Below the pieces are notes generated by a model. The model made no database searches, was not told where the DNA came from, and saw nothing but the letters and a program-made list of their open reading frames with translations. The position numbers were made by a program, and so were the translations under genes. Shown in pieces: positions 5,078 through 31,492 of a stretch of 33,109 nt of DNA. Numbering within the stretch: position 1 is the stretch's first letter; each line of letters starts with the position of its first letter. Location of the stretch: positions 1 to 33,109 of the forward strand of contig JAJRQV010000026.1 in NCBI GenBank assembly GCA_024280035.1. Direction: 5' to 3'. The stretch comes from Campylobacterales bacterium (lineage in GTDB: Bacteria > Campylobacterota > Campylobacteria > Campylobacterales > Sulfurimonadaceae).

Positions 5078-5731
5078 GTGGCAAAAAGATCTGTATGGAG
5101 TGACAACCGTTTCTGGCAACGTTCAGCGGCTTGGGTTACAGGATTTGCATCTATTTTACTAATTTGGTTAACGTTTGATACGATTCCACAAATTACTATG
5201 GGAACAGATGCTGATTTAAAAGGTGGAGTAACGAAGAGGGTTCCAGGACCAACAGTTATTAATTATAAGATTACATATGAAATGGATGCGAAACGTATGC
5301 ATGAAATTCCAGTAATCGGAGATAAAGAGTTGTTTTTTGGCCGTGACGATTGGTCTGAAGAAGAAGCTGGAGCCTTATTACACTTAGGTAAACTAGGTTC
5401 ACAAGCGAAGAACTGTATGGATTGTCATACATTACTTGGTAATGGTGCATATTATGCTCCAGACTTAACAAAAGCATGGTTAGATCCAGCATGGGGACCT
5501 GAAGGTTCAATGCAAGCAATGACAGGAAAAAGTACTAAAGAAGAAGCTATGGCTGAATTTTTACAACATCCGTCAACTTACCCAACTCACGCTCGTATGA
5601 TGCCAGATCTTGGTATTACTGCAGAAGAGGCTAAAGGTTTAGTTGCTTTCTTGAAACATATGTCATCAATTGATACAAATGGTTTCCCAAGAAACTTCGG
5701 AAGAATGCAAGGAGCAGTAAATGGCAAGTAG
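5078..5731 (+). CDS. norC: Nitric oxide reductase subunit C (monohaem cytochrome c)
   Basis: The membrane-anchored cytochrome c subunit of cytochrome c-dependent nitric oxide reductase; it passes electrons from periplasmic donors to NorB. One N-terminal anchor helix (about residues 17-35) precedes a periplasmic domain with haem motif CMDCH at 113-117 and a Met ligand candidate in RMMPDLG (Met174 or 175). CHTLLGNGAYYAPDL just after the haem site is a strong NorC signature. At 217 residues it is longer than many NorC proteins (about 150), with extra sequence between anchor and haem (residues 45-95). The start is GTG 5078, preceded by AGGAGGA. The end overlaps norB by 11 bases, giving translational coupling and equal dosage. 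Confidence 0.95.
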   Translation: MAKRSVWSDNRFWQRSAAWVTGFASILLIWLTFDTIPQITMGTDADLKGGVTKRVPGPTVINYKITYEMDAKRMHEIPVIGDKELFFGRDDWSEEEAGALLHLGKLGSQAKNCMDCHTLLGNGAYYAPDLTKAWLDPAWGPEGSMQAMTGKSTKEEAMAEFLQHPSTYPTHARMMPDLGITAEEAKGLVAFLKHMSSIDTNGFPRNFGRMQGAVNGK

Positions 5732-7142
5732 TCTAACATCAGAGTCTAAAAAATTAGCAACATGGTATTTTACTTTTGCTGCAATTATTTTTGGTGCTCA
5801 ATTATTATTTGGTTTAGTAGCTGCGATTCAATACGTAGTTCCAGGTTTCTTATTTGAACTATTAGACTTTTCAATCGCGAGAATCTTACACATTAATGCA
5901 CTTGTTGTATGGATGGTATTTGCAATGTTCGGTTCTGTTTATTGGTTATTACCTGATGAAACAGGTATTGAAACAGTTGGTATTGGTATTGCAAAACTTT
6001 TATATTGGATTTTTGTTGCAGCTATTGTAGTTGTAATTTTAGTATATTTATTTATTCAAGTTGGTCCAGCAGATCAAACAACTATCTGGTTTATCACAGA
6101 AGGTCGTGAGTATCTTGAAGCACCACGTTGGGCTGATATTGGTATCGTTGTTGTAGCACTTGGATTTGTATTTAATCTTTATGCAACAGGAATGAAAGGT
6201 AACCGTTCAGGTATTGTTACTGTACTTATGGCTGATATGCTTGCATTTGCGGGTCTTTATTTAGCAGGTATGGGTTACACAGATAATATCTCTATGGATC
6301 AGTACTGGTGGTGGTGGGTAATTCACCTATGGGTTGAAGCTACTTGGGAAGTATTCGTTGGTGCTATTGCTGCTTATGGTTTAATCACTATGATTGGTGC
6401 ACACCGTAAAGTTGTTGAAATGTGGTTATGGATTGAAGTAGCAATGCTATTTGGTTCAGGTATCTTAGGTATCGGTCACCACTACTTTTGGATTGGTACA
6501 CCTGAATACTGGTGGGAAATTGGAGCGTTATTCTCTGCTTTAGAACCATTACCATTAGTGGCTATGTTTATTCATGTTCTTTATGACTGGGGTAAAATGC
6601 AAGGTGAGCAAGAAGCTAAAGGCGAAGCTAAATCTGTTATTACAAATAAACCAGCGTTTACATGGTTTGTTCTTAATGCATTTGGTAACTTCTTAGGTGC
6701 TGGTATCTGGGGATTCTTCCACACATTACCACAGGTTAACCTTTATACACACGGTACACAGTTTACGTCGGCTCACGGTCACTTAGCGTTCTTTGGTGCT
6801 TATGCAACGATTCTTATCGGTATGTTCTACCTTGCAGTTCAAGGTAAAAATGGTATTAAAGTGATGCATGCAACTAAGAAATCTATCTGGGCAACGAGTA
6901 TGATTGTTGGCGGTGTTGTTGGTATGACAATCGCATTAACGGTAGCTGGTTATGTTCAAGTTCTTGTTTCACGTGCTCAAATGGGTGCTACATGGGCAGG
7001 TTTCTTTGACGGTCAATCGGGTATGTGGTTTGCACAAGGTATGGACTGGAGACTTGTTATGGGTGTTATTACATTCTTAGGTTTCTTAATCCTAGTAGTA
7101 GATTTATTAAGCATTGGAAAAAATGCTAAACACGAAAGATAG
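5721..7142 (+). CDS. norB: Nitric oxide reductase subunit B (cytochrome b, catalytic)
   Basis: The catalytic subunit of cNOR, reducing 2 NO to N2O and water at a haem b3/non-haem iron site in the inner membrane. It has about 12 hydrophobic segments in 473 residues, typical for cNOR and without the N-terminal extension of quinol-dependent qNOR. Expected ligands are visible: low-spin haem His57 (RILHINALVVW), FeB ligands His202 and Glu206 (HLWVEATWE) with His253/His254 (GHHYFWIG), Glu275 in SALEPLP, and the haem pair His352/His354 in AHGHLAF. The ATG overlaps the end of norC by 11 bases. A 51-codon membrane peptide gene follows after 9 bases. All catalytic positions look intact, so the enzyme should be functional. 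Confidence 0.97.
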   Translation: MASSLTSESKKLATWYFTFAAIIFGAQLLFGLVAAIQYVVPGFLFELLDFSIARILHINALVVWMVFAMFGSVYWLLPDETGIETVGIGIAKLLYWIFVAAIVVVILVYLFIQVGPADQTTIWFITEGREYLEAPRWADIGIVVVALGFVFNLYATGMKGNRSGIVTVLMADMLAFAGLYLAGMGYTDNISMDQYWWWWVIHLWVEATWEVFVGAIAAYGLITMIGAHRKVVEMWLWIEVAMLFGSGILGIGHHYFWIGTPEYWWEIGALFSALEPLPLVAMFIHVLYDWGKMQGEQEAKGEAKSVITNKPAFTWFVLNAFGNFLGAGIWGFFHTLPQVNLYTHGTQFTSAHGHLAFFGAYATILIGMFYLAVQGKNGIKVMHATKKSIWATSMIVGGVVGMTIALTVAGYVQVLVSRAQMGATWAGFFDGQSGMWFAQGMDWRLVMGVITFLGFLILVVDLLSIGKNAKHER

Positions 7143-7151
7143 GGAGATATT

Positions 7152-7307
7152 ATGTTTGAACCATTTGTAGACGTAGTACCGAGTTTCTTTGGTTGGTTAA
7201 ATCAAGGTCCATTGACAATGACGATTTTCCTTCATACGATTATCATCCTTCCAATGATCTGGATTTATAAACAAGAGAAAGCTCGTATCGAGAAAGAAGA
7301 CGCTTAG
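7152..7307 (+). CDS. 51-residue single-helix membrane peptide after norB
   Basis: A 51-residue peptide starting MFEPFVDVV and ending KARIEKEDA, with one hydrophobic segment (about residues 22-39, LTMTIFLHTIIILPMIWI) and a charged, cytoplasm-like tail. AGGGAG precedes the ATG at normal spacing, and the gene starts 9 bases after the norB stop, so it is very likely translated with norCB. Single-helix peptides of this kind are known as accessory subunits of haem-copper oxidases (for example the CcoQ and CydX types); by analogy it may be a fourth NOR-associated subunit. I do not recognise a named family. The 3' end of the gene is partly duplicated just downstream. Confidence 0.75.
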   Translation: MFEPFVDVVPSFFGWLNQGPLTMTIFLHTIIILPMIWIYKQEKARIEKEDA

Positions 7308-7440
7308 TAATTCTGGCACCTTGGTGTCAGAAAAAGCTTCGCAAAGAAGAAGACGCTTAGTAGTTTTAAAGCTTCGGCATAAAATAAGCTTCGCAGAGAA
7401 GATTTATAGAATCTTCTCACTTAGGCTTCCTGAGATGGGA
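7291..7440. repeat. Partial duplications and hairpins downstream of the 51-codon gene
   Basis: AGAAGACGCTTAGTA, which holds the last codons and stop of the 51-codon gene (7295-7309), recurs at 7348-7362. AAGCTTCGCA followed by AGAAG or GAGAAG recurs at about 7333-7348 and 7384-7401. A stem with a CTTG loop lies at 7314-7329 (CTGGCAC/GTGTCAG, one G-U pair), and a perfect hairpin GAGAAGATT/AATCTTCTC lies at 7396-7418. None is followed by a clean T tract. The block looks like slipped duplications that built hairpins, possibly protecting the norCB message 3' end. Confidence 0.5.
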
Positions 7441-7482
7441 GTCTTGTTTTAAATACATTTTAGGTATTGTATTTAAAGTAAA

Positions 7483-7535
7483 ACTTCAGAAATGAAGTGC
7501 TAAAATTTAACAAAGATCTTTATTACAGTAAAGAT
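7483..7535. promoter_or_regulatory. Two inverted repeats in the nirS leader
   Basis: ACTTCA-GAAA-TGAAGT (7483-7498) is a perfect 6-base stem with a GAAA tetraloop, and ATCTTTA-N6-TAAAGAT (7516-7535) is a perfect 7-base inverted repeat. The 13-mer AAGTGCTAAAATT spanning 7495-7507 also occurs at 4390-4402 upstream of the nor genes. No CRP/FNR box with normal 4-base spacing is visible before nirS. The remaining leader, 7536-7668, holds no coding frame that I can support, and ends with AAGGAGAAGAA before nirS. Confidence 0.4.
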
Positions 7536-7668
7536 TATGTTGAGCGGCCCAATTCAATGGCAGAAGAGGGCTATAGTAAAAATACTAGAGTTTAATAGTA
7601 TTAATAATGAAAATAATGGTTATTGTATGGCGTAGGGGTCAGCGGTAATTTTAATTCAAGGAGAAGAA

Positions 7669-9306
7669 ATGAAATTAAATAAAATTGTAACTTCAGTTGC
7701 TGCTATGGCAGTAGTTTCTACTGGTTTATTCGCGGGTACGTCTCATATGGATATTGAGAAGATGTTTGAGAAAGAGTGTCAGGGGTGTCATGGTCCAAAT
7801 CATGAGGGTGGTGTTGGTTCAGATTTACGTCCTAAAGTAACTGCGAAGAAAAATGCATATATGCTTGCTGAAACAATCTTAAATGGTCGTGCGGGTACGG
7901 CAATGCCACAGTTTAAAGAAAAATTCACTAAGGCTGATGCTGATAAAATGGTGGATTATATCCAACACTTTAAAGGTAAGAAAATTGAAGTTCTTACTAT
8001 GGATGCTGTAAAAAAAGGATGGAAAAAACTTAATAACCGTATGGATTTCTTAAAGAAATATCCACATGCAGTTGATGTTAAGAAAAACACTGATATCTGT
8101 TTCGTAACAGAACGTGATGCAGCAAAAGTTGTATTCGTAGATGGTACTTCAGGTAAGATTCTTTCACGTCACCCAGCAGGTTTCGCAGTTCACGTAACTG
8201 TAACTAATAAACGTCAGCCTCGTTATGCATACTCAATCTCTCGTTCAGGTTTAGTAACAATGTTCGACCTTAACACTCCGGGTCAACAAAAAATTGCTGA
8301 GGTTCAAGTGGGATCTGACTCACGTGGTCTAGCAGTTTCTCCAGATGGTAAATATCTAATGGCAGGTAACTACGTACCAGGTGGTGCAATTCTTATGGAT
8401 GCAATGACGCTTGAGCCATTAAAAGTTTATCCAACTTCATCTGTAATTAACATGGATGGTGATATCGGTTCATCTCGTGTAGCTGGTATTTATGATACTC
8501 CATATGGTCCATACATTGCATTTGCTCTTAAAGATGCGGGTCATGTATATATCGTAGATTATTCTAAAGAAGGTTTCCCAATTGTTGGAGATATTCCAAA
8601 TATTGGTAAAATCTTACATGATGGTTTTGAAAATGAAGGTAAAGAGATTGGTCGTTATCTAATGCAAGCTTCTCAAGGTTCTGATGTAATGGGTATTATT
8701 GATTTCAAAACGAAATCTTTAGTAGCTAAAGTTTACACAGGTCCAGGTAGTAAGCCACACCCAGGTCAAGGTTCTTCTTGGTATAATGAAAAATATGGTC
8801 AAGTTCATGCAACAAACAGTATGAATGTTGGTAATGTTGTCATCTGGGATAACAACTGGGATGTTGTTAAAGAAGTTAGAACTGCTGGTGGTGGACTCTT
8901 TGTTGGTACATCTGAGCATACACCATTTATCTGGTCAGATAATGTAATTGGTGGACCAGCTAACTGGAATAAAGTTCACTTAATTAATAAGCAAACTTTA
9001 GAAACAGATAGAATTCTTACTGTTGGTACTAAAAAAGGTACGATTACAGATCCTGTAACACATAAAGTACTTTACTCTTGGAGTGTTCCAACAGTTAAAA
9101 ATAAAAAAGGTAAAGCGGTAATTCCTCGTATCCTTCACGCTGAACCAGCAAACCATGGTCACTGGACTATGATTTCTGAGTGGAATACAGGTCGTATCGG
9201 TATTTATGAAGCAAAAACAGGTAAATTTGTTAAATACATTAAAGGTTTAACAACACCAACGTTTACGTACTCTATCGAGCACCGTCAAACTATCCCAGGA
9301 GCATAG
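7669..9306 (+). CDS. nirS: Cytochrome cd1 nitrite reductase
   Basis: The periplasmic dissimilatory nitrite reductase that reduces nitrite to NO at haem d1. A Sec signal peptide (about residues 1-22, ending LFA) is followed by a cytochrome c domain with CQGCH at 37-41 and Met79 (TAMPQF) as likely haem c ligand, then the d1-binding beta-propeller from about residue 110 to the end. His175 (FAVHVTV) matches the d1 iron ligand, and His317 (LHDGF) with His364 (KPHPGQG) are the likely active-site pair. At 545 residues it is normal for NirS. AAGGAG precedes the ATG, and a strong terminator follows. Between norCB and the haem d1 operon it forms the NO-generating step whose product NorCB removes. Confidence 0.97.
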   Translation: MKLNKIVTSVAAMAVVSTGLFAGTSHMDIEKMFEKECQGCHGPNHEGGVGSDLRPKVTAKKNAYMLAETILNGRAGTAMPQFKEKFTKADADKMVDYIQHFKGKKIEVLTMDAVKKGWKKLNNRMDFLKKYPHAVDVKKNTDICFVTERDAAKVVFVDGTSGKILSRHPAGFAVHVTVTNKRQPRYAYSISRSGLVTMFDLNTPGQQKIAEVQVGSDSRGLAVSPDGKYLMAGNYVPGGAILMDAMTLEPLKVYPTSSVINMDGDIGSSRVAGIYDTPYGPYIAFALKDAGHVYIVDYSKEGFPIVGDIPNIGKILHDGFENEGKEIGRYLMQASQGSDVMGIIDFKTKSLVAKVYTGPGSKPHPGQGSSWYNEKYGQVHATNSMNVGNVVIWDNNWDVVKEVRTAGGGLFVGTSEHTPFIWSDNVIGGPANWNKVHLINKQTLETDRILTVGTKKGTITDPVTHKVLYSWSVPTVKNKKGKAVIPRILHAEPANHGHWTMISEWNTGRIGIYEAKTGKFVKYIKGLTTPTFTYSIEHRQTIPGA

Positions 9307-9323
9307 GCACAGCCTTCGCCCTT

Positions 9324-9360
9324 TTTTCTCCTCTTCATTTGGGGAGAAAATTTTCTTTTT
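9324..9360 (+). terminator. Rho-independent terminator of nirS
   Basis: TTTTCTCC (9324-9331) pairs perfectly with GGAGAAAA (9343-9350) around an 11-base loop and is followed by TTTTCTTTTT. The distance of 18 bases from the nirS stop and the T-rich tail make this the clearest terminator in the window. It separates nirS from the following FNR-driven operon. Confidence 0.8.
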
Positions 9361-9434
9361 ACTCCTTAACCATACTCTCTTTAAACAAAGTAAAACTACC
9401 AAACTAAACACCCTAAAAACATAGTATATAACTA

Positions 9435-9476
9435 TTGATACTTATCAAGGATAATATGCCTTTTTTGTCCTATTCT
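9435..9476 (+). promoter_or_regulatory. FNR box (TTGAT-N4-ATCAA) and -10 of the nirCJFE promoter
   Basis: TTGAT-ACTT-ATCAA at 9435-9448 is a perfect FNR consensus palindrome. TATTCT at 9471-9476 is a plausible -10 element, placing the box centre near -41.5, the class II activation position. The first gene starts at 9522. This predicts oxygen-limited activation of the haem d1 genes by an FNR-like regulator, and differs in its half-site from the box of the nor promoter. Confidence 0.75.
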
Positions 9477-9521
9477 ATGTTATTCTTATATAAAATAAAT
9501 TATAATAAACAAGGAAAAAAG

Positions 9522-9830
9522 ATGAAGAAATTTTTAATATTACTAGCTTTTTTAGCGACTTCTCTTTTCTCTTCCGATGTAGATGGGAAAAAAGTCTTTG
9601 AGACTTATTGCTGGGGATGTCATCATCAGACAGCAATGGCATTTGGTCCTCCTTTTACACAAATTGCTGCCAAACGTACAAAAGATGAGATAGAAGCATA
9701 TATTATCTCTCCTAAGTCTATGTACAAAGCCTTTGGATACAAACGCACGGTAATGACTCAATTTAACTTAAGTGATAAAGAGAGAAGTCATATCGCAGAC
9801 TATATTCTCTCTTTTAAAGGAAAAAAATAA
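9522..9830 (+). CDS. nirC: Small periplasmic monohaem cytochrome c, NirC-like
   Basis: A 102-residue exported cytochrome c: signal peptide about residues 1-18 (MKKFLILLAFLATSLFSS), haem motif CWGCH at 29-33, and a C-terminal helix ADYILSFKG typical of class I cytochromes. VMTQF or nearby Met gives the sixth ligand. The frame is open further upstream, but the ATG at 9522 with AAGGA before it is chosen because the upstream TTG at 9435 is part of the FNR box. It overlaps nirJ by one base (TAATG). NirC proteins donate electrons to NirS or act in d1 maturation; the assignment rests on position and size rather than on a specific motif. Confidence 0.8.
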   Translation: MKKFLILLAFLATSLFSSDVDGKKVFETYCWGCHHQTAMAFGPPFTQIAAKRTKDEIEAYIISPKSMYKAFGYKRTVMTQFNLSDKERSHIADYILSFKGKK

Positions 9831-10951
9831 TGTTTAGATTATCTAATCTTATTGGTTCGGTTATAGAAGATAAACCCGAAAGAATTTTAGACGGAAGTAT
9901 TGCAATTTGGAACTTTACGAACCGTTGTAATCTTTCTTGTCTTCATTGTTACTCAAAATCAACCTTAGACGAAGTTGATACTTTAACAACACAACAGATT
10001 AAAAAAACCATCTTAGAGATGAAAGCTAATGGTGTTAAGTTTATTATCTTTTCTGGTGGCGAGCCGCTTACACGTAAAGACCTATTCGAAATCGCAGATT
10101 TTTGTAAAGATAATGGTATTGTTACTTATCTTTCATCTAATGGTCTGTATTTTACCAGTAAAAATATCCAACGCATTGTCGATACTTTTAATTATGTAGG
10201 TGTTTCTATTGATGGGGATGAACCTACTCATGATTATTTTCGCGGTCTTAAGGGTTCATTTAAAGAGACACTTAAAGCAGTACAAATGGCGAATGCTACA
10301 GGGGCTAAGGTAGGTATTCGTTATACCATAACGAAAGATACTTTAAACTCTTTAGAGTATATTTTTAAGCTAGCTGAAGATGAAAATATTCCTAAAATTT
10401 ATGTTTCGCACCTTGTTTACTCCGGACGTGGTTTAGATAATTTAAAAATGGATTTATCTAAGGCGCAGCGTCGTAAAGCTGTTGAGTTTATCTTAGATAA
10501 GGCATTTGAATATTACGAAACAGGCAGAGATATTGAGATTGTAACGGGAAATATGGAGATGGACGCAGTGATGTTTTTAAACAGGTTTTCTGAAAAATAT
10601 CCTGAGAAAAAAGAGGCAATGCGAAAACGTTTAGTGACTTGGGGTGGAAACTCGGCTGGGCGTAAACTACTGAATATTAACTCTGAAGGTGATGTCAGAC
10701 CTGATCCTTTTTTCCCATTAACAGTAGGAAATATTATTAAAGAAGATTTTGGTGATGTTTGGCAACAAGGTGAGCTTTTAAATCAGCTTAGAATTCATCC
10801 TAGAAAACAGATATCAGGTATTTGCGCAACCTGTAAACAGCTTGATATCTGTAATGGTGGTTCACGTGCAAGAGCGTATGCAATTACAGGTGACTTATGG
10901 AGTGAAGATCCATCATGTTATTTAACTCAAGAAGAAAGAGAGACTATTTAA
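9830..10951 (+). CDS. nirJ: Haem d1 biosynthesis radical SAM protein NirJ
   Basis: A radical S-adenosylmethionine enzyme that acts on the side chains of the didecarboxysiroheme intermediate during haem d1 synthesis in the cytoplasm. The [4Fe-4S] motif CNLSCLHC gives Cys33, Cys37 and Cys40; GGEP lies at 76-79. The C-terminal SPASM/twitch-like region holds Cys332, Cys335, Cys341 and Cys363 for a second cluster. The 373-residue length and the N-terminal sequence FRLSNLIGSVI fit NirJ. The ATG overlaps the nirC stop (TAATG) and its own stop overlaps the nirF start in the same way. The family also includes related tetrapyrrole enzymes such as AhbC, but the neighbours make NirJ the best call. Confidence 0.93.
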   Translation: MFRLSNLIGSVIEDKPERILDGSIAIWNFTNRCNLSCLHCYSKSTLDEVDTLTTQQIKKTILEMKANGVKFIIFSGGEPLTRKDLFEIADFCKDNGIVTYLSSNGLYFTSKNIQRIVDTFNYVGVSIDGDEPTHDYFRGLKGSFKETLKAVQMANATGAKVGIRYTITKDTLNSLEYIFKLAEDENIPKIYVSHLVYSGRGLDNLKMDLSKAQRRKAVEFILDKAFEYYETGRDIEIVTGNMEMDAVMFLNRFSEKYPEKKEAMRKRLVTWGGNSAGRKLLNINSEGDVRPDPFFPLTVGNIIKEDFGDVWQQGELLNQLRIHPRKQISGICATCKQLDICNGGSRARAYAITGDLWSEDPSCYLTQEERETI

Positions 10952-12057
10952 TGAATAAGTTATTTTTGGCGGCATTAACAGCACTACTGTTTTACTCAAT
11001 TGCAGAGGCTAAAGTAGAAGAAAAGTTTTTTATTGTTGAACGTGAAAACAGCTCTTTGGCTGTTGTTGAACATGGTTTACCACGAGCACACCTTGAAGGT
11101 ATGCATAATATGAATCATGGTGTAGTTAAATTTGATGGAAAAGATGGTTATGTTATCTCTCGTGATGGTTATATAATGAAGTTTGACCCTCTTAATGTTA
11201 AAAAAATCAAAGAGTTCAAAACCTCTGATTCTGCTATTGGTTTTACGATAAGTAAAAACTATATCGCGGTAGCTAATTATGCTAAGAAAAGTGTTGACAT
11301 CTTAGATAGAGACTTAAACCCATTACAATCTTTTGATACGGGTTCACGTAATGTAGGTATTAAAATTTATAAAAATTATCTTATTTTTGCACAAATGGAT
11401 AATGATAAATTGACGGTATTAAAAGATAAAAATGCTGGAAAAGGGAAACCTGATTTCGAAATTTATAAAGAGTTTAATGATGTAGGTATAATGCCTTTTG
11501 ATGCAATGATTACGGGAGATAAGTATATTGTAGGCTTTTTTACCTCTAAACATTTTGGTGTTATAGACTTAGATACAATGAAATATGAAAAAATTAAAAT
11601 TCTTTTAGGTGATAGACAACCTGTTATGAAAGTACCACATTTTGGTTTTTGGTCAATTTCAGGTGATAAGATTTTCATTCCTGCTGTAGGGGATAATAAG
11701 CTTTTAGTTTATGATAAAGATTTTAACTTTATTCAAAATATTGAGATTGAAGGTACACCTGTGTTTTCAGCACTTAGCCCTGATGAGAAATATGTAGCTG
11801 TTACTTTTTCAGGTAAGAAGTTTCCTGTTATTCAGATTGTAGATACACAAACTCTAAAAGTGATTCAACGTTTTGAATTTGATGGAAAAGTGCTGCATGT
11901 AAGATGGTCAAAACATACACCAAGTCTATATGTTTCTGTGAATGACAGTAATATGGTGGCGGTGATAGATACAAAAAAATGGTTCAAAAAACGAGATATC
12001 TTTCAAATTAAAAAACCATCAGGCATATTCCTTTACGAATATGAAGAAGAAAAATAG
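10951..12057 (+). CDS. nirF: Haem d1 biosynthesis protein NirF
   Basis: A periplasmic beta-propeller protein related to the d1 domain of NirS, needed for the last steps of haem d1 formation (dihydro-d1 dehydrogenation). A Sec signal peptide ending AEA (about residue 20) precedes the propeller; there is no haem c motif, which distinguishes it from NirS and NirN. SALSPDEKYVAVTFSG and GTPVFS are propeller-like blade segments. The frame is open 36 bases further upstream, but the ATG at 10951 is chosen for its one-base TAATG overlap with nirJ and its proper signal peptide. It has 368 residues, a normal size. No lipobox is seen, unlike some NirF proteins. Confidence 0.9.
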   Translation: MNKLFLAALTALLFYSIAEAKVEEKFFIVERENSSLAVVEHGLPRAHLEGMHNMNHGVVKFDGKDGYVISRDGYIMKFDPLNVKKIKEFKTSDSAIGFTISKNYIAVANYAKKSVDILDRDLNPLQSFDTGSRNVGIKIYKNYLIFAQMDNDKLTVLKDKNAGKGKPDFEIYKEFNDVGIMPFDAMITGDKYIVGFFTSKHFGVIDLDTMKYEKIKILLGDRQPVMKVPHFGFWSISGDKIFIPAVGDNKLLVYDKDFNFIQNIEIEGTPVFSALSPDEKYVAVTFSGKKFPVIQIVDTQTLKVIQRFEFDGKVLHVRWSKHTPSLYVSVNDSNMVAVIDTKKWFKKRDIFQIKKPSGIFLYEYEEEK

Positions 12058-30096: not shown

Positions 30097-30696
30097 ATGG
30101 CAGTAGAGATTGTAGATAACTTAGACTGTTTCGCAGAAGCGTTTAAAGGTCTTAATTTTCATGGAAAAGAGATAAAAAAAGCAGAATTTGAAGATTGTAC
30201 CTTTAACTCTTGTGACTTTAGTGAAACTTTTTTTTCATCATGTAGGTTTATTGAATGTACTTTTATAAACTGCAACTTAAGTCTTATGAAACTTAACAGT
30301 ACTAAACTAAGTGCGCTTCGCTTCGATTCATGTAAAATGGTTGGTATAGACTGGACAATGGCTGATTGGAAAAGTCTACTTACAGCTGAACCACTAAGGT
30401 TTAATGCGTGTATCTTAAATGATAGTTGTTTTTTTGGTTTGGACCTAGAAGAACTTGTTATAAAAGCATGTCGTGCTACAGAGGTAGACTTTAGATAGTG
30501 CTCACTAAAAAAAGCCAATTTACAAGAAACAGATTTTAAAGGGGCACGCTTTGAAAATACTAATCTTGAAGAGGCAAATTTTACTGAAGCACAAAATACG
30601 CACATTGACATAAGAAAAAACAGACTTCAAGGAGCAATCTTTAGTCGATATGAAGCACTTTATTTGTTAGAAACGATGGAAATAAAGTTGGTTTAG
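30097..30696 (+). pseudogene. Pentapeptide-repeat protein interrupted by an in-frame TAG
   Basis: A pentapeptide-repeat protein (A(D/N)LXX units forming a right-handed quadrilateral beta helix). The first part, 133 residues, ends at TAG 30496-30498 (after EVDFR), yet the frame continues at once with repeats CSLKK, ANLQE, TDFKG, ARFEN, TNLEE, ANFTE and then a helical end, stopping at TAG 30694-30696. The repeat phase is kept exactly across the stop, so the codon was a sense codon until recently or is read through. Without it the protein is about 199 residues, a McbG/Qnr-like length. Function of such proteins ranges from gyrase protection to unknown; no more can be said. Confidence 0.8.
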
Positions 30697-30853
30697 CATA
30701 TATTAGCGAAAATTAATATTTAATATTTCGTTGTGAATTTTGAATATTTTACGATACCCAATCTAAGTCATAAGCAGTGCGTTTAATTAAGCTCCGCTAT
30801 AATTCTTTAAATAGACTTCTTGCATAAGCTTGTGTAGTCGAATAAGGAAACCC

Positions 30854-31492
30854 ATGCCTGAAGAGTTAGAAGAGACTGAAAAATTATATTATGACCCATT
30901 AAGTGTGGCAAGACGTACTTCGCAAAAGATTCATTTTGTACATGAACATGATAAAAATGCCATGATATCACATCTGATTATTAAAAACATGTATACCGAT
31001 GTTATTGTGGTAACAAAAACAAAACGTCAAGCCGATTAGCTTTCTAAATATTTGCAAAAAAATGAGATTAAAGCCCTAAGCATACATAGTAACAAGAATA
31101 AAGAAGAGACAGCAAAGTCAGTGGACGTATTTAATAAGAATTAAATAAGCGTTTTAATTATGACAGATATGAGTTTACAAGCTCAAAACTTTCCTGTTAT
31201 TAGGCATATGATAAGTTATAACATTCCCATTGAAGCCAGTTATTATTATGAACGATTAGCAATACTTGAAGAAAAAGGTGAGGCTATCAACCTTGTAAGC
31301 GAAGTAGAACATCCTTTAATGGACGTAATACAATGGGCAATTAAAGTAGAAATACTCGAAGTTGAACCTGAGGGTTTTAGCCCAACAAATATTCCCGAAA
31401 TAATTGAAAAAGAAAAAAAAGATAAAAGAAAAAAACCAAGACATAAAAGAAACAAAAATAAAAAAGAGAGCAAGAAACAAGAGAGTGAATAA
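30854..31492 (+). pseudogene. Helicase-C-like protein with two in-frame stops
   Basis: A single reading frame of 213 codons, ATG 30854 with AAGGA 5 bases upstream, interrupted by TAG 31037-31039 and TAA 31142-31144. Joined across both stops it reads as a DEAD-box helicase second RecA domain: SVARRTSQKIHFVHEHDKN, then DVIVVTKTKRQAD, LSKYLQKNEIKALSIHS, VLIMTDMSLQAQNFPV and ISYNIPIEASYYYERL. The motif VI Arg fingers are missing (YYYERLAILEEKG) and a Lys-rich tail ends it (about 30 residues), just as in the protein at 17576-18190. No first RecA domain precedes it. Expression as one chain needs read-through of two stops; otherwise it is decayed. Confidence 0.7.

Follow-up and report, generated by a model that had tools for sequence, protein, structure and literature searches.

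The window, the whole stretch of 33,109 nucleotides analysed here, is contig 29 of the 107 that make up a 2.51-Mb draft genome, which is rated 100% complete. The genome is placed in the Campylobacterota, in the family of Sulfurimonas and Sulfuricurvum. The related genomes come from uncultured Campylobacterota and are listed under Sulfurimonas, Sulfuricurvum or Arcobacter, with G001, G002 and G005 belonging to the same genus. Two adjacent genes of the window contain in-frame stop codons:

Upstream neighbours: response regulator, histidine kinase and carbonic anhydrase.
30097..30696, + strand: pentapeptide-repeat gene, 199 aa with the internal stop read as a residue (Pfam PF13599/PF00805).
30496..30498, + strand: in-frame TAG, codon 134 of the pentapeptide-repeat gene; Asn in relatives, Gln or Glu in distant ones.
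30854..31492, + strand: stand-alone Helicase_C-domain gene, 212 aa with both stops read as residues (Pfam PF00271).
31037..31039, + strand: in-frame TAG, codon 62 of the Helicase_C gene, at a variable site (Glu, Val, Ala, Lys, Ser or Thr in relatives).
31142..31144, + strand: in-frame TAA, codon 97 of the Helicase_C gene; Glu (GAA) in same-genus relatives.
Downstream neighbour: sulfide-dehydrogenase-like flavoprotein.

TAG 30496, TAG 31037 and TAA 31142 are present and in frame in the sequence given and break the two genes with the reading frame kept, as stated in a preliminary description of this DNA. Its further statement, that no frameshift is visible and that the domains continue past the stops, is borne out by end-to-end alignments of both genes with intact relatives, which contain no frameshift, and by Pfam. 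Pentapeptide repeats (PF13599/PF00805) occur both before and after TAG 30496, and a single Helicase_C domain (PF00271, residues 34-131, E 6.6e-12) spans both 31037 and 31142. Orthologues of the pentapeptide-repeat gene are intact in G001, G002, G005 and others at 79-62% identity (79-74% within the genus), and those of the Helicase_C gene are intact in G001 (66%), G005 (62%) and G002 (58%). At the site of TAG 30496, Asn (AAT/AAC), two bases away from TAG, is found in the nine closest relatives. The description also remarked that each stop is one base from Glu, Gln or Lys codons; this is true, but it holds for every TAG or TAA by construction and is no evidence.

The comparison with close relatives proposed there showed, besides the intact genes in the same-genus genomes, that the parts downstream of the stops are as constrained as those upstream. 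Calculated for each segment, pN and pS downstream of the stops match the values found between two intact relatives, dS being saturated. Relaxed constraint after the window stops was not detected by pN/pS, in which a very recent loss would not show. Given the undiminished constraint, the window stops must have arisen very recently if they are real at all.

Whereas the preliminary description reported lesions in these two adjacent genes, both of which are indeed affected, the pattern extends across the genome. We compared 1.04 Mb of the source genome by homology with 1.06 Mb of G001, corresponding to approximately 94,000 aligned codons each way; the remainder of the source genome was searched by family, protein or pattern only. 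Of the 94,087 aligned codons of the source genome, 22 were clear in-frame stops (17 TAA, 5 TAG and no TGA). Four sites in 93,966 codons of G001 passed the same filter, all of which proved on inspection to be shadow ORFs or N-terminal extensions, giving 22 versus 0 (Fisher p ~5e-7). An independent codon-usage scan yielded 37 in-frame stops per megabase in the source genome versus 3 in G001. A first codon-usage scan had found 16 strong in-frame stops, all TAA, in ~412 kb of the source genome and 2 in 385 kb of G001, a few of the stops being gene junctions; its stops also fell within EF-Tu, trigger factor, FliI, FtsA, HolB and a DEAD-box helicase. Extrapolation suggests some 80 such stops across the whole genome. 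Frameshifts were likewise more numerous (~7 versus ~1 in G001), several of them inside A or T runs and with FtsA (twice), LeuRS and MurD among the genes affected, although this excess is weak by itself (p 0.07).

The affected genes include single-copy essential ones. The only full-length copy of EF-Tu in the genome is interrupted by one TAA but otherwise encodes a normal protein of 399 residues, and FtsA is hit three times within 1.1 kb, by two single-base frameshifts and by one TAA (L105 7173-8535). AccD contains one TAG, AccA and LspA one TAA each, and LeuRS and MurD are frameshifted; in-frame stops were further detected in HolB, PdxJ, FliI, trigger factor and Tex. Compared with solved structures, the stop in PdxJ replaces the invariant Glu of the motif HLREDRRHI and that in AccD an invariant Trp; compared with one solved structure, the stop in Tex replaces an invariant Gln. 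AccD, PdxJ and Tex were identified by matches to solved structures, and the other gene names given here and above were assigned from sequence and are presumptive. A cell without EF-Tu, FtsA, AccD, AccA, LspA, LeuRS or MurD is not viable, so that real inactivation is excluded for these indispensable genes. The FtsZ gene, just downstream of FtsA, is intact.

Base-call error was one of three explanations offered in the preliminary description, next to gene loss and read-through, and in the form of consensus error it fits best; the other two fit worse. The same draft has stops and frameshifts in single-copy essential genes, and a draft of the same genus has essentially none. We consider it very probable, judging from assembled sequence, that the window stops are consensus errors in the draft assembly. 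The errors would most likely stem from low local read depth or quality. In the living cells both genes are probably ordinary and intact, one encoding a pentapeptide-repeat protein and the other a Helicase_C-only protein. Assembly errors have been shown to account for many bacterial pseudogenes that contain internal stops, with low-quality reads raising internal stops more than frameshifts and an excess of internal stops over close kin being a sign of poor assembly (Cooley and Wright 2024, PMC11017572). The source genome resembles the spurious pseudogenes of that study (PMC11017572) in having excess stops, fewer frameshifts and otherwise near-normal genes, far above its relative. It differs from them in the absence of TGA among the 22 stops. 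If the stops are errors, any claim of gene loss, read-through or pseudogenes from this genome needs the reads.

The distribution of the stops is consistent with this explanation. Mean local identity was 0.767 at stops and 0.757 over all codons (KS p ~1), whereas it was 0.648 at real amino-acid differences (p 0.004). The stops are therefore scattered irrespective of local conservation and have not been sieved by selection. Lesions cluster beyond chance, with 9 pairs within 1.5 kb where 3.3 are expected (p 0.012; p 0.046 with the window excluded), as expected if read depth is locally poor. We had also regarded scarce radical missense changes as an argument against base errors. This argument was withdrawn: according to a simulation over 93,478 codons, 22 stops should be accompanied by only ~20-30 radical missense errors where conservation is high, compared with 282 natural differences there, and the excess is swamped by natural divergence, leaving the comparison without power.

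Some observations count against consensus error. The absence of TGA among the 22 stops is odd: TGA is expected at ~23% under uniform substitution (p 0.003) and at ~15%, as estimated from codon usage, under a G:C-to-A:T bias (p 0.03). In addition, three stops within 650 bases are dense for the mean rate, although clusters occur elsewhere too, such as the three lesions in FtsA. Among specific error types, a single damage type such as G-to-T accounts for Glu and Ser sites but not for Gln, Lys or Trp. Long-read style loss in long homopolymers was rejected on account of run lengths equal to those in the relative, and masked bases on account of N letters confined to two short contigs of the sampled genome.

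Alternatively, both window genes were inactivated very recently in this lineage, with the other genomic stops being errors or unrelated. The same density of three lesions within 650 bases would agree with such a loss, which requires just two genes to be lost. Both genes are patchily distributed among relatives and look dispensable, the pentapeptide-repeat gene being found in 17 of 60 relatives and the Helicase_C-only form in roughly a dozen. The own branch of the Helicase_C gene is, moreover, somewhat longer (dN 0.12-0.15 versus 0.07-0.10). Against this stand the lack of any frameshift or deletion in the two genes and the normal constraint after their stops. Like lesions also occur in single-copy genes that the cell cannot do without, so that a separate cause is not needed for the window, and loss of these two genes alone leaves the genome-wide pattern unaccounted for. 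We therefore regard recent loss as unlikely.

Still less likely, and in our view improbable, is genome-wide read-through of genuine stops, mediated for instance by an ochre-suppressor tRNA or by weak termination. An ochre-suppressor tRNA, with anticodon UUA, decodes UAA and UAG but not UGA, and the composition of the stops (17 TAA, 5 TAG, 0 TGA) and their position within essential genes would agree with this. So would the mostly polar residues of G001 at the 22 stop sites (E 8, Q 3, S 3, T 2, K 2), although the G:C-to-A:T direction of mutation by itself yields mostly Glu, Gln, Ser and Trp codons. Frameshifts are present too, however, and a suppressor tRNA cannot mend these. Invariant Glu (PdxJ), Gln (Tex) and Trp (AccD) are all replaced, and no single re-decoding fits them. 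The search for suppressor tRNA genes suggested in the preliminary description came back empty: no TTA, CTA or TCA anticodon was detected among 33 genomic tRNA hits, by ARAGORN on 1.04 Mb, or by a suppressor-tRNA pattern search, a negative result that is not final since Ile and Asp tRNAs are absent among the 33 hits and the tRNA set is thus incomplete. Altered release factors were not found either, RF1 and RF2 being intact with the usual motifs, and terminal TAA usage on long ORFs is 0.635 in the source genome versus 0.640 in G001.

Recoded or nonsense-suppressed genomes in which UAA and UAG are read as sense, as in ciliates, likewise have UAA and UAG, and not UGA, inside conserved genes. The source genome differs from these in that no suppressor tRNA was found, release factors are normal, TAA is still the main terminator, frameshifts are present and no consistent residue occurs at the stops. 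That this bacterium tolerates TAA and TAG in many genes, essential ones included, by means of an undetected ochre suppressor while keeping TAA as its main stop is highly improbable. Were its internal stops genuine and translated, this bacterium would, to our knowledge, be the first with a working genome-wide UAA/UAG ambiguity. Selenocysteine and pyrrolysine can be dismissed, as the stops are TAG and TAA, a tRNA of that kind was not detected, and no one residue is conserved at the sites.

The Helicase_C gene resembles the C-terminal half of a DEAD-box helicase (PF00271), in that it likewise encodes a single Helicase_C domain with a Lys/Arg-rich tail behind it. A full DEAD-box helicase has an N-terminal DEAD domain, whereas the Helicase_C-only gene lacks one in all orthologues seen. 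The short form is therefore normal and not a truncation. In a relative (G015, C76:96093-97280), a Helicase_C-only gene lies directly after a full DEAD-box helicase, an arrangement that hints at partial duplication as the way in which it arose. In G001 (L086 7227-8920), the Helicase_C and pentapeptide-repeat genes are also neighbours on one strand, in reversed order and with a 147-aa gene between them. Elsewhere in the window, positions 5721-12057 contain a denitrification-like cluster with all frames open, comprising a COX1-family oxidase or nitric oxide reductase, cytochrome cd1 domain proteins, a small cytochrome c and a radical SAM/SPASM protein.
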